A stretch of 64,000 nt of DNA, taken from contig SHBD01000005.1 in assembly GCA_004212735.1 (NCBI GenBank), positions 62,001 through 126,000 on the forward strand, read 5' to 3'. This DNA comes from SAR116 cluster bacterium (GTDB lineage: Bacteria > Pseudomonadota > Alphaproteobacteria > Puniceispirillales > Puniceispirillaceae). Positions 54,152 through 62,380 of this stretch are shown piece after piece (position 1 is the first letter of the stretch; each line of letters opens with the position of its first letter). The position numbers and the translations under genes were made by a program. The notes beneath the pieces were generated by a model. It was given only the letters and a program-made list of their open reading frames with translations. It had not been told where the DNA came from and did not search any database.

Positions 54152-54898
54152 TCATGCGATGGATGCACAGGGCTGACCAGCCAACACAAGCAACGTGGCG
54201 TCATCATGTGTTGTCAAATTTCCCTGTTCAAACTGGTCCATAATCCGGTGCAGCTTCTCCGCCGCATTGCGCCCCGGAATTTTTGTCGCCAACGCGGCAA
54301 AACCATTCACGCCCAGTTCCCGCTCCCGCCACTTTGCCTCGGTAATGCCATCGGTCGCGAGATACAGGTACCCATCACCAAGCGTAAGCTCGATGGGTCG
54401 CAAATCACCCAGATCAAATGGTTTGATGCCAAGCGGAATGGTCTGTGCAGGAAACATCACATGCGGCTCATGCGATGGACAGAAAACAGCAGGCCCATGA
54501 CCACAATTGAGGGTCTGCACGTTTCCGGATGTGGGATCAAGCCACCCAATGATAAGTGAGACAAAGCGATCAGACCCAGCGTCAATCAGCTCGGCGTTCA
54601 TGTGGTTGACAATCTGCGGGCAATCAAGACCTTGGCGGGCAAGCTGGCGAAACAGGGCGACGGTACGCGCCATCATCAATGAGGCTGCAATGCCCTTTCC
54701 AGAAACATCCCCCTGACAGAAAGCGATGCGCCCGTTGATTTCCATATGATCAAAAAAATCACCGGATAGATTGCGTGCGGGTATGACCATGCCAGCGATG
54801 TGCCCCGCCGGATCATCATTCGGCATCAGCGCATCCTGGGCCTGTCTGGCCTGTTCCAGGTCACGCGCCAATAGGCTGTCGGAAACCATCATTTTCAT
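54152..54898 (-). CDS. PP2C-type serine phosphatase (RsbU/SpoIIE-like)
   Basis: The 248-residue protein has the SpoIIE phosphatase domain: ARNLSGDFFDHMEINGRIAF near residue 40 (metal aspartates in SGDFFDH), GDVSGKGIAASLMMART near 66 and YLATDGITEAKWRERE near 175, with TTHDDATLLVL at the end. It should dephosphorylate an anti-anti-sigma protein in a partner-switching system. A short N-terminal helix (about 1-30) replaces the sensor domain of RsbU. No STAS-domain target is encoded beside it. Confidence 0.88.
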   Translation of the reverse strand: MKMMVSDSLLARDLEQARQAQDALMPNDDPAGHIAGMVIPARNLSGDFFDHMEINGRIAFCQGDVSGKGIAASLMMARTVALFRQLARQGLDCPQIVNHMNAELIDAGSDRFVSLIIGWLDPTSGNVQTLNCGHGPAVFCPSHEPHVMFPAQTIPLGIKPFDLGDLRPIELTLGDGYLYLATDGITEAKWRERELGVNGFAALATKIPGRNAAEKLHRIMDQFEQGNLTTHDDATLLVLAGQPCASIA

Positions 54899-55059
54899 GG
54901 CACCAACAGTGATCGACCCAAGCGCAGAAAATCAGCCCCATTCGGCATTCAGAACACGGTTGCGGCGCAAGATGCAGGAAGCGAGCGAGGCAGACACAAC
55001 TGTCGATGATGGCAGCCAGTCATAGGCACCACTCAAGAGGAGGCGCCAGCAGAGAGATG

Positions 55060-55629
55060 CTAAATTTTCTGCTGAGCCTTACCGTAAAGGTTTCTCGTCT
55101 CAGCGACGTAGACATCTTTTGAGATCACACCATCGAGATAAAGTTGACGCGTCGCAAGCATTTCCTGCTCGATGGCAGCCAGAGCCACCTCTGGGTCCGC
55201 ATCCTTAATCTGCGCTGCCGTTCCCGTATTTTTCGCTTTGCGGCGATGAAACACAAACCCATCGACATTTGTTCCGCTCTTCTCCGCTCCTTCAGGCGGC
55301 GCAGATACTTTTTTTGCAGCAACTGCCGCAAGCGCGTCAGCCTGCGCATCGGGGGTCGGCATGGCTGCTGCGGCCTCGCCATTGAACTCTGCCTTTGTTA
55401 CCAGTTCGTTCAGCAACACCGGTTCACTGGTTGCCGCGGCAGAGCGCTGCGTAGATTGCCCCTGCCGCCTGGCAACAACGAACAGCAACATGATGACCAC
55501 AACACCAGCAAGGGCCAGTGCCTGCAACGTTCCCTGCGGTCCATTAAAATGGGCCGTCAACCGCGCTGTCACATTGGTCAGAATTGGTAGGATGCTGTCG
55601 AATATTTCCATAATGTGTTCAAAGCCCAT
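55060..55629 (-). CDS. Membrane-anchored protein of unknown function
   Basis: The 189-residue protein has a single helix at about residues 36-53 (LALAGVVVIMLLFVVA), followed by a basic segment and an Ala-rich, probably disordered region. Near the C-terminus (residues 145-185) an acidic helical segment with LAAIEQEMLATRQLYLDGVI (here IEQEMLATRQLYLDG) resembles the SHOCT-like motif. It is divergent from the pilM/pilC chimera, sharing a 118-bp promoter gap. Unknown role, possibly linked to the signalling genes downstream. Confidence 0.7.
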   Translation of the reverse strand: MGFEHIMEIFDSILPILTNVTARLTAHFNGPQGTLQALALAGVVVIMLLFVVARRQGQSTQRSAAATSEPVLLNELVTKAEFNGEAAAAMPTPDAQADALAAVAAKKVSAPPEGAEKSGTNVDGFVFHRRKAKNTGTAAQIKDADPEVALAAIEQEMLATRQLYLDGVISKDVYVAETRNLYGKAQQKI

Positions 55630-55747: not shown

Positions 55748-56932
55748 ATGGCAAAAACGTTAACCAAACTAGCCAGCTTTTTCCGCCCTCTGGGCGGAGG
55801 AAGCGATGACCTAGTCGCTGTCAAACTTCACCGACGCGCCATTACGGTAGCTGAAATAAGGCATAATTCCAATGTCATAAATATCGATACTATTGCGAGC
55901 GCACCGCTGGCCCGCGATCTACAGGTCGCACGCATCACTCGCCAGCATGACATGATCGCCGATACATTGCGCGGCATGCGCGAGGGTGGACTGTTCTCGG
56001 CACGGGATGCAGGCATCATCATTCCAAGTGGTGTTGTCACGCTTCGCCAGTTCAATTTGCCCTATCTGACAGCGGCCGAACTCACACGGGAAAGCAAGGA
56101 CGTTGCCTTCTGGGTCGAGGCTGGCGAAATTTCGGGCAAGCTGGATGTGTTTCTCGACCGCTTGGTGGAAATGCTGGAAAAGCAGCAAAAGATCAAGGCT
56201 GGCATAAAATCCGCACTGTTCTATCCAATAACGCTGGTGGTGATCACCGTTGCCATTTCCTATTTCATGCTGACCAAGGTGGTGCCAACCTTTCAGGAAA
56301 TGTATGAGGGGTTGGGCGCCGAATTGCCGGGCCCCACACAAGCAATTGTCGATGCCAGCAATTGGATACAGGATGGCGGCAACCTGGCCAGTGTCATCGG
56401 TGTGGTGATCAGCATCTGGCTGACAAACAAGATGTTGCACCGTTATCTGCGCCCCTATCGCAAACTGAAAAGTGTCATCGCCCTGCGGTTGCCGGTTGTT
56501 GGTGATATCATCGTCAAGGCAACGGTCGCCCGCATGTCGCTGTTGATGGCCAATCTTCTGGCGGCAGGTGTTTCGGTCATCGACACGCTCGAGGTCTCCA
56601 GCACGGTCTCGCAGAATGTCAAATTTCTCGACGCAATGACACAGATCAAACAGAAGATCGTGACAGGCGCACCGCTGTCGACGCTGTTCGGCAATGAGGC
56701 CGTGTTCCCGATTGCGCTGTCGCAGTTGATGGCTGTCCGCGAGCGCACCGGTAACATGGACGAAATGCTGACCTCGATCGCCCGCTATTACGAGGAGGAA
56801 TTCACCACCGTTGTTGATGGGCTGTCGACAATCATTGAACCGCTGATGATCGTCTTTGTCGGATTGATGATCGGGGTGATGGTAGTGGCGCTGTATCTGC
56901 CGATTTTCTCCGCTGGCGATGCCATCAAATAG
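55748..56932 (+). CDS. Chimera: PilM/MshI-like N-terminus fused in frame to PilC/GspF C-terminal part
   Basis: Residues about 20-122 look like the N-terminal actin-like part of PilM/MshI: LVAVKLHRRAITVAEIR, then GIIIPSGVVTLRQFNLPYL and ELTRESKDVAFWVE. From about 124 the sequence is PilC/GspF: GEISGKLDVFLDRLVEMLEK, ALFYPITLVVITVAIS (first helix pair), then a complete second GspF domain with MANLLAAGVSVIDTLEV, FPIALSQLMAVRERTGNMDEML and IIEPLMIVFVGLMIGV. The first half of the first GspF domain is missing. A deletion between pilM- and pilC-like genes, joining them in frame near 56115-56125, explains it. No pilB, pilA or pilQ gene is in the window. Confidence 0.72.
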   Translation: MAKTLTKLASFFRPLGGGSDDLVAVKLHRRAITVAEIRHNSNVINIDTIASAPLARDLQVARITRQHDMIADTLRGMREGGLFSARDAGIIIPSGVVTLRQFNLPYLTAAELTRESKDVAFWVEAGEISGKLDVFLDRLVEMLEKQQKIKAGIKSALFYPITLVVITVAISYFMLTKVVPTFQEMYEGLGAELPGPTQAIVDASNWIQDGGNLASVIGVVISIWLTNKMLHRYLRPYRKLKSVIALRLPVVGDIIVKATVARMSLLMANLLAAGVSVIDTLEVSSTVSQNVKFLDAMTQIKQKIVTGAPLSTLFGNEAVFPIALSQLMAVRERTGNMDEMLTSIARYYEEEFTTVVDGLSTIIEPLMIVFVGLMIGVMVVALYLPIFSAGDAIK

Positions 56933-57088: not shown

Positions 57089-57682
57089 ATGAACATGGAT
57101 CAACAAACCGTCAGTTTTCGCCGGATGGATGAAGGCAGTGCCGCCGATTACGCGCTGCTGGCATCGTGCGAGGATGATTATGCCGCCGGGCTTGCCGACC
57201 GTTTGCTGGCAGCATTGGAAGATTTGCAACATTCGCTTGGCGGATTCCGGATCGACCGGCTGCAACATTCGCTGCAATCGGCGACGCGGGCCGAAGCGGA
57301 TGGTGCCGACATCGAGATGATCGTTGGCGCGCTGATCCACGACCTTGGTGATGATCTGGCGCCGCATAACCACTCGCAGCTGGCGGCGTGCATCATCCGG
57401 CCCTATGTGCGGGCTGAGGTGACCTGGGTGATTGAGCATCATGGTATTTTCCAACTCTATTATTTCGGTGACGCCGAGGGCGTGAACAAGAATGAGCGTG
57501 ACCGCTATGCCGGCCACAAATGGTTCGACAGCTGCGACAATTTCTGTGGGCGCTGGGACCAGATGTCCTTTGACCCAGAATATCCGACCAAACCGCTGAG
57601 CCATTTCGAACCGATGCTGCGCGAGGTGTTCTCCCGCACGCCCTTTGACCCGGCGATCATCGGCGAGAGCGCTGAGACCTGA
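57089..57682 (+). CDS. HD-domain protein with MIOX/PhnZ-like ligand pattern
   Basis: The 197-residue protein has H60, H84-D85 (ALIHDLGD), H93/H95 (APHNHSQLAA), H117/H118 (VIEHHGIFQ) and aspartates near 150-157 (KWFDSCDNFCGRWD). This His-HD-His-His-Asp set is the ligand list of mixed-valence diiron oxygenases such as inositol oxygenase and the phosphonate enzymes PhnZ and TmpB, as well as of HD phosphohydrolases. AGAGGAGG precedes the ATG at 57089. An SDR gene follows after 57 bp, so the pair may oxidise a small molecule. Substrate unknown. Confidence 0.75.
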   Translation: MNMDQQTVSFRRMDEGSAADYALLASCEDDYAAGLADRLLAALEDLQHSLGGFRIDRLQHSLQSATRAEADGADIEMIVGALIHDLGDDLAPHNHSQLAACIIRPYVRAEVTWVIEHHGIFQLYYFGDAEGVNKNERDRYAGHKWFDSCDNFCGRWDQMSFDPEYPTKPLSHFEPMLREVFSRTPFDPAIIGESAET

Positions 57683-60643: not shown

Positions 60644-61757
60644 GTTCGGAGACGGCGTAATCGGCGCGCGCCAGCCAGTCTGGATTGACCTCAACACCCC
60701 AGCCGGGCGCGTCCGTCACCGCAACCTTGCCATCGGTCACGGCAAAGGGATCGCCGCAGAACAGATCTTCGGTCCAGGGGTAGTAATCCGCGCCCTCAAT
60801 GGCGAATTCGAGATACGGCCCAGCATTGGGAATGGCGCGCAGCAGATGCATCGTGCAAATCGTCACCAGCGACAGATTGGCCGCATGCGGCGTGCAGACA
60901 AAGCCACCCGCCGCCGCCATCGCCGCAACCTGAAGCGTCGGGGTCAGGCCGCCCATATACATCACATCAGGCTGCATCACATCGGTGACATGATTGTCGA
61001 TGGCGTGCTGCCAGATCCGCATGTCGCAATCCTGCTCGCCGCCGGTGACATCAATCGCCAGCGCGTCAGTCACCTGTTTTGTCTGCTCCGGCCGCCAATA
61101 GGGGCAGGGCTCCTCATAATGGGTGATGCCGTGATCCTCGAGCAGATGGCCAATTTCAATCGCCCGCTCAACGCCGAAACAGCTATTGGCATCGACCATG
61201 CGCACAACATCATCGCCAAGCGCGCGGCTCATCGCCGGGATGATCTGTTCGGTGCGGCCGGGCCATTCATCACGCCCGCGCCCGCATTCAGCGCCAACAC
61301 GGAATTTGAACGCGTCAAACCCCTTCTCATCACGCAGCCGACACAGCCGCGCCGCCTCCTCATCCGGGGTGATGTCGCGCTTCATCGACGAAGCATAGGC
61401 ACGCACCGGCCCGGGCGAACCGCCAATCAGACTGGCAACCGGCTGTTCGGCCAGCCTGGCAACAAGATCCCACAGCGCGGTGTCCAGCCCGGCCAGCGCC
61501 CGGCGAACATAGGAGCCCGGAAATTTATGCTCCCGCTCATGCACCAGCGCGGCGATATCGGCAAAATCAGCGGCCGGCGCACCGCGATCAATTGGCCGGC
61601 CCAGAACCCAGGGGGCAACCTGCCGGTGAAAGACCATCGTCGTGATATCGGCATGATAGGTCGACATCTGGCCGATCCCGCTATGCCCGCTATCCGTGGT
61701 CAGGCGCACAAACGCAACTTCGGGGGTGGTGAAACTTTCCAGCCTGACGATCTTCAT
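60636..61757 (-). CDS. Enolase-superfamily enzyme (mandelate racemase/muconate lactonizing type)
   Basis: The 373-residue protein has the superfamily layout: N-terminal capping domain (about 1-120), the lysine motif FDAFKFRVG near residue 160, metal ligands in RMVDANSCFG near 195, YEEPCPYW near 222 and TGGEQDCDM near 248, and the base in CTPHAANLS near 295. Members dehydrate or epimerise sugar acids or epimerise amino acid betaines. Length and KxR-type lysine point to the mandelate racemase group. It stands alone amid repeats. The start at 61757 is the first ATG. Confidence 0.9.
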   Translation of the reverse strand: MKIVRLESFTTPEVAFVRLTTDSGHSGIGQMSTYHADITTMVFHRQVAPWVLGRPIDRGAPAADFADIAALVHEREHKFPGSYVRRALAGLDTALWDLVARLAEQPVASLIGGSPGPVRAYASSMKRDITPDEEAARLCRLRDEKGFDAFKFRVGAECGRGRDEWPGRTEQIIPAMSRALGDDVVRMVDANSCFGVERAIEIGHLLEDHGITHYEEPCPYWRPEQTKQVTDALAIDVTGGEQDCDMRIWQHAIDNHVTDVMQPDVMYMGGLTPTLQVAAMAAAGGFVCTPHAANLSLVTICTMHLLRAIPNAGPYLEFAIEGADYYPWTEDLFCGDPFAVTDGKVAVTDAPGWGVEVNPDWLARADYAVSELE

Positions 61758-61854
61758 GGCTCGGGTCTCCAGTTACAGGACATCGGTGTGGCACCCTATG
61801 AAAGAGCGGCTTGGTAAAGGGTGGCGTGAGGCGTGGTTGAATGGGTGGCGGCGC

Positions 61855-61994
61855 GTTTGGTGCTGGTGTTGGTGCTGGTGTTGGTGGTGCATTTGGTGTT
61901 GGTGCTGGTGCTGGTGTTGGTGCGGTGCTGGTGTTGGTGCGGGTGCTGGTGTTGGTGCTGGTGTTGGTGCGGGTGCTGGTGTTGGTGCGGGGCT
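61855..61994. repeat. 12-bp GGTGCTGGTGTT tandem array
   Basis: About eleven units of GGTGCTGGTGTT (variants with GCGG or GGT inserts) run in series. Low-complexity frames cross it in several phases (Val-Gly-Ala-Gly on the plus strand, His-Gln on the minus) but none has a convincing start. Regard as non-coding repeat DNA unless expression is shown. Confidence 0.9.
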
Positions 61995-62010
61995 CCCGCA
62001 CCCCATGCCA

Positions 62011-62064
62011 GCCTGAACCCAGCTCGCATGTCCGTTTGCCTGAACCCAGCTCGCATGTCCGTTT
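62011..62064. repeat. 27-bp direct repeat, two perfect copies
   Basis: A 27-bp unit (starting GCCTGAACCCAGCTCGCATG) occurs at 62011-62037 and again at 62038-62064, followed by a short partial copy. Both are perfect. The region after it (62070-62300) shows AT-rich stretches and no gene. Confidence 0.88.
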
Positions 62065-62380
62065 GCCTGAACCTCAGTTTCAAAGACTTCACCTACCGAC
62101 ACCCCCGCAAAGACCCGCATCGACGACACCTGTATTTCCGCCCGACTGTTCCATGCCAGAACGGACAGGGTCAATCAAAAAGCAGTGCAACTTGTGGCTG
62201 AGAGAGAGACCGGCGCGCGCAATCAAATGGCTTTAATATACTGATTTCGATCACTTTTTCGTGAGTTTGGGTGACTTTGAGTGATTTTCATTAATTAGAT
62301 TTTACTAATTTTCAGCATGGTGCCAGCGATCCGGACAGCGACACCCCCCGACAGGGCTGCCCCGTTCCGGCCTAAACCAT

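Follow-up and report, generated by a model that had tools for sequence, protein, structure and literature searches.

An open reading frame (ORF) of 394 codons in a 64,000-nucleotide stretch of SAR116 cluster bacterium DNA (the window) begins like PilM and ends like PilC/GspF, the inner-membrane platform protein of type IV pili and type II secretion systems (T2SS). This raises the question of whether the ORF encodes a fused pilus component or marks the loss of a pilus. An earlier note on this DNA had described an in-frame chimera and offered both readings. Our comparison with related genomes favours the second: we consider the ORF to be a young deletion scar of a type IV pilus operon, without pilus function, with a probability of about 0.83. 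The features discussed below are listed in Table 1.

Table 1. Features of the fused ORF and its surroundings in the window
Feature	Positions	Strand	Remarks
SpoIIE-type phosphatase ORF	54152–54898	-	Starts antisense within the secretin tail; probably 5'-truncated by a second deletion
Secretin gene scar (C-terminal tail, SETIIFMAPTVIDPSAENQPHSAFRTR...)	54879–55025	+	Corresponds to the C-terminus of the G010 secretin (alignment at 812–865); reads in frame
Divergent small protein gene 'up'	55060–55629	-	Neighbour of pilM where the operon is intact; retained after operon loss; no Pfam match
Fused ORF	55748–56932	+	394 aa; ATG start
N part of the fusion	55748–56110	+	Codons 1–121 of a pilM(N)-type gene, the first gene of the lost operon
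Deletion joint	56105–56116	+	TGG then GTCGAG (Trp, then Val-Glu), codons 120–123; compared with parent sequences of relatives
C part of the fusion	56111–56932	+	Codons 138–409 of pilC/gspF and stop; 87% identity to G010 GspF 138–409
HD-domain gene	57089–57682	+	Downstream flank of the operon in relatives

Composition of the fused ORF

The chimeric nature of the ORF was confirmed by alignment to the proteins of G010, a single-contig genome of the same family, in which the two halves correspond to separate proteins: the first 121 residues of a PilM/PilN-type protein and residues 138–409 of a PilC/GspF protein. The N half was also searched on its own, in line with a check proposed in the earlier note. 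The N part aligns from Met1 with the G010 PilM/PilN-type protein (61–63% identity), and its identity is 60% to the G031 protein and 49–57% to those of other family members. The Pfam PilM_2 profile matches the N half alone weakly (E 0.0014, below the cut-off), and its coverage in the fusion extends only over profile positions 6–83 of 340, which is not a full PilM domain. The agreement with the relatives' operon gene nevertheless makes the descent of this part from pilM clear. The C half is matched strongly by the NCBIfam PilC/GspF/HofC models (residues 123–394, entering at model positions 130–151 and running to the model ends; E 1e-57 to 8e-62). PilC/GspF platform proteins contain two complete T2SSF domains, whereas Pfam T2SSF finds one complete domain in the fusion (residues 266–385) and, of the other (first) domain, only positions 61–125 of 125, just as had been noted from the translation. 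A further possibility raised at that time, that residues 1–121 are an alternative N-terminus of a GspF subfamily, was ruled out, because they do not align to the normal PilC N-terminus.

In relatives, the N part corresponds to the beginning (121–133 residues) of a ~535-aa protein, whereas the last 272 residues of a ~410-aa protein correspond to the C part; the genes of these two proteins lie several kilobases apart. Compared with PilM or the PilM-PilN-type product of the first gene of pilus operons (PF11104, PF05137), with which residues 1–121 align from the start codon (G010 protein; PilM_2 weak, PilN), the fusion lacks 415 of 536 residues, among them the PilN part and the remainder of the PilM region. 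Residues 122–394 align to the end of the type IVa pilus platform protein PilC/T2SS protein GspF (PF00482, TIGR02120; PDB 3jc8, 2whn), including the second T2SSF domain and the membrane helices. The fusion differs from this protein in lacking residues 1–137, and with them half of the first T2SSF domain (its first half), in having no partner machine in the genome, and in carrying arginine at position 330 (G330R) in place of a glycine that is invariant in the compared PilC proteins and also present in a distant PilC.

Parent operon and deletion joint

An intact operon was sought in relatives between the same flanking genes and was found in G010, where the gene order is HD gene, nitronate monooxygenase-like gene, gspF, gspE, pilP-like, pilO-like, pilM/N, 'up', secretin and prepilin peptidase, with a PilT-like gene and a SpoIIE-type phosphatase gene farther out past the peptidase gene. 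The gspE product contains T2SSE with MshEN, and the pilM/N product contains PilM_2 (weak) and PilN; the names pilO and pilP rest on position, as neither product has a Pfam match. The same core order, with part of the flanks, is present in G031 and G006 and on contigs L059 and L060. The latter two are titled Acidimicrobiaceae and Myxococcales; their GspE and GspF are 79–82% identical to those of the alphaproteobacterial relatives, and the record names look wrong. Searches of the literature turned up no account of this operon or of how it was lost.

Both halves of the fusion and its flanking genes are collinear with G010, in which intact pilM-pilO-pilP-gspE-gspF lies between 'up' and the HD gene. 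Relative to the G010 sequence, the fusion corresponds to the loss of ~5,690 bases, from PilM codon 121 to GspF codon 138 (by subtraction of G010 coordinates). A deletion between pilM and pilC, suggested earlier as the simplest origin, is supported by this intact operon in the same neighbourhood and by the absence of the machine's other genes elsewhere in the genome (see below).

The joint had been placed near VEAGEISG and in frame, and the comparison of parents agrees. The sequence across it is TTC TGG GTC GAG GCT GGC. At this site, PilM of relatives has Trp, then Val, Ile, Thr, Ala or Gln, then Glu or Asp, and PilC has Met-Val-Glu-Ala-Gly, so that the Val-Glu codons of the two parents coincide. 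Trp-Val-Glu occurs in PilM of G006 and G078; the direct parent of the fusion is not preserved. The crossover thus likely took place at a short word, GTCGA(G), common to both parents, and the identical phase of this word would have kept the frame without special cause. The exact joint is carried by one genome only, that of the window, and a search among viral contigs did not find it.

Second deletion and the rest of the machine

A second deletion just upstream appears to have removed two genes completely, the PilT-like and the prepilin peptidase gene, and to have spared only the tail of a third, the secretin gene. On G010 spacing it would amount to ~7 kb (by subtraction; loci L028 and L079), and the remaining secretin tail lies ~0.7 kb from the fused ORF. 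The SpoIIE-type phosphatase was probably affected as well: the frame of its G010 counterpart continues upstream of the phosphatase domain, past the start point of the ORF in the window, which therefore seems to have lost an N-terminal part.

The assembly that contains the window (2.49 Mb, 66 contigs) is 96% complete, and the absence of single genes is therefore not absolute. The G010 GspE query had no match in it. No T2SSE gene over the family cut-off was found; one match below the cut-off is another gene on another contig. Neither a secretin nor a prepilin peptidase (peptidase A24) was found in the assembly, and its only T2SSF gene is the fusion itself. Thus, gspE is absent from the rest of the genome together with the linked secretin and peptidase genes, and the GspE/PilB-type ATPase and secretin that should accompany a platform protein in the same genome are both missing. 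The lack of an over-cut-off T2SSE, a secretin and a prepilin peptidase in a 96% complete genome indicates that the pilus machine is gone and that the cell can apparently no longer assemble a pilus.

What persists is a prepilin-like cluster at the end of contig C16 (L085, 3180–5778 and 5991–6254), with open frames of 666 and 191 aa and a third frame, carrying a methylation motif, that is interrupted by the contig end. Related clusters in G010, G031, G014 and G006 accompany an intact machine, and pieces persist in some machine-less genomes; the cluster was not found in G001–G004, which are only 57–73% complete. An open pilin cluster without peptidase or ATPase fits recent loss of the machine. 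The G010 equivalent of the third frame (L103, 9030–11459) has laminin-G and weak C-type lectin matches.

Scars in related genomes

The same operon has left remnants of several kinds in other genomes of the family. G001 and G004, the members of the genus with a readable site, share a decayed relic that consists of PilM codons ~33–52 followed by GspF relics from approximately residue 266 (fusion numbering); in the HD, SDR and 'up' genes, these two genomes are mutually closest, with the genome of the window outside. In G056, PilM 1–159 is joined out of frame to a GspF tail, and in G051, PilM 1–92 is joined in frame, with one stop, to a GspF tail similar to that of G056. G007 has an open frame of 117 aa with ~110 PilM residues that ends in PIFSAGDAI, the GspF end. 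Decayed operon remnants are present in G060 and G040, and only the start of PilM is retained in G005, G015, G021 and G017. The operon has thus been cut several times in the family, with different breakpoints. Enrichment of in-frame scars was considered and rejected: those of the window, G007 and G051 are in frame and that of G056 is not, and three of four versus an expected one-third is not significant (P ~0.11), in a count in which G051 and G056 may share a breakpoint.

Within the G001 and G004 relics (L039, 5870–5905 and L067, 8135–8170), ~35 bases of pilM (GAAAAAAGGCATAATTCCAATT.CATAAATA) are much better kept than the remaining relic, and this stretch is possibly an upstream signal of the divergent gene.

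Age and selection

In a codon model of the PilC half, omega was 0.067 on the branch leading to the fusion versus 0.046 elsewhere, a difference that is not significant (likelihood ratio test statistic 1.07). The N half by itself has too few and too divergent residues for such an estimate. The absence of relaxed constraint implies that the fusion is either young or still constrained. When an unconstrained terminal stretch was fitted to this branch, counting stop codons, the best fit for the PilC half was 0–0.03 substitutions per codon, and values above ~0.1 were disfavoured by two log units; this fit is rough, with the topology fixed from a tree with weak support. Synonymous divergence from the sister species is ~0.7–1 per site or more. 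An unconstrained fusion must, given these values, be young, whereas a constrained one could be old.

An open frame and a low omega are equally expected of a constrained protein. The fusion could instead date from the ancestor of the genus, with selection maintaining it as an orphan protein of the inner membrane whose head derives from PilM. The frame open over 394 codons and the omega of 0.067 would agree with this, as would the relic shared by G001 and G004, which lies within the parts kept in the fusion and could represent a further deletion of the same fusion. However, the PilC half evolves like PilC of intact machines despite its absent partners, it has decayed in each of the two sister species in which the site is readable, the still-open prepilin cluster speaks for late loss, and the N fold is a fragment in a model that is poor across the joint (pLDDT 32–47; pTM 0.26). 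We therefore regard such an origin as unlikely, and its fuller version, in which the PilM head on a partial PilC platform performs a membrane task without a pilus, kept here and lost in the sisters, as slightly less likely again. The fusion is probably a young relic.

Interpretation of the fused ORF

A misjoin inside an intact operon is very unlikely. The sequence does come from a single draft assembly of 66 contigs, but the site is internal to a 170-kb contig, none of the other contigs carries the remaining genes of the machine, a second scar lies close by, and relatives are scarred at the same site. Least likely of all is that the translated product modulates some other secretion system, a role with which the kept pilM start codon and the complete PilC membrane part might agree, because the genome yielded neither a secretin nor a further T2SSF gene nor a T2SSE gene over the cut-off.

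For the young deletion scar, we propose the following course. A deletion of ~5.7 kb between two short, in-phase matching words (the Val-Glu codons, GTCGAG) would have eliminated pilO, pilP and gspE completely, together with the 3' part of pilM(N) and codons 1–137 of pilC/gspF, so that the remaining ends were joined in frame behind the original pilM start codon. In the second, upstream deletion, the genes for the PilT-like protein and the prepilin peptidase would have been lost along with most of the gene for the secretin, and pilus assembly would have been lost from the cell. The fused frame may still be translated; it most likely does nothing, because the joint interrupts both folds and no partners remain, and it would be expected to decay as in the sister species.

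Translation would yield a membrane protein whose N-terminus is a broken piece of PilM. Its predicted structure has a mean pLDDT of 56, with the low-scoring blocks at residues 91–160. A Foldseek search with this model recovered PilC and, weakly, actin-like/FtsA-type folds; these matches are too weak to argue for function and support only the two origins of the fusion. The fusion most likely does not work as a pilus part, because the platform protein has lost its beginning and the ATPase, the secretin and the prepilin peptidase are missing. The proposal that it ties the PilM fold to the platform is accordingly weak, given that only 121 of 536 PilM/PilN residues remain; of the alternatives in the earlier note, loss of a type IV pilus fits best.

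Fusion pseudogenes arise by deletions within an operon during gene loss. The present case is like them in that the first and last genes are joined, the intervening genes are lost, the flanks are kept and decayed versions exist in relatives; it differs in being open over its whole length and in having counterparts at this operon in several lineages of the family. The fusion is ordinary in kind and useful as a clear example of stepwise loss: across one bacterial family, this pilus operon ranges from intact, through recently cut with the fusion still open, to decayed, with several different breakpoints. It is also a warning that a PilM::PilC-type fused frame can receive a pilus-gene annotation although the cell has no pilus machine.

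Elsewhere in the window, a short-repeat stretch at 61690–62240 gives overlapping low-complexity frames on both strands.
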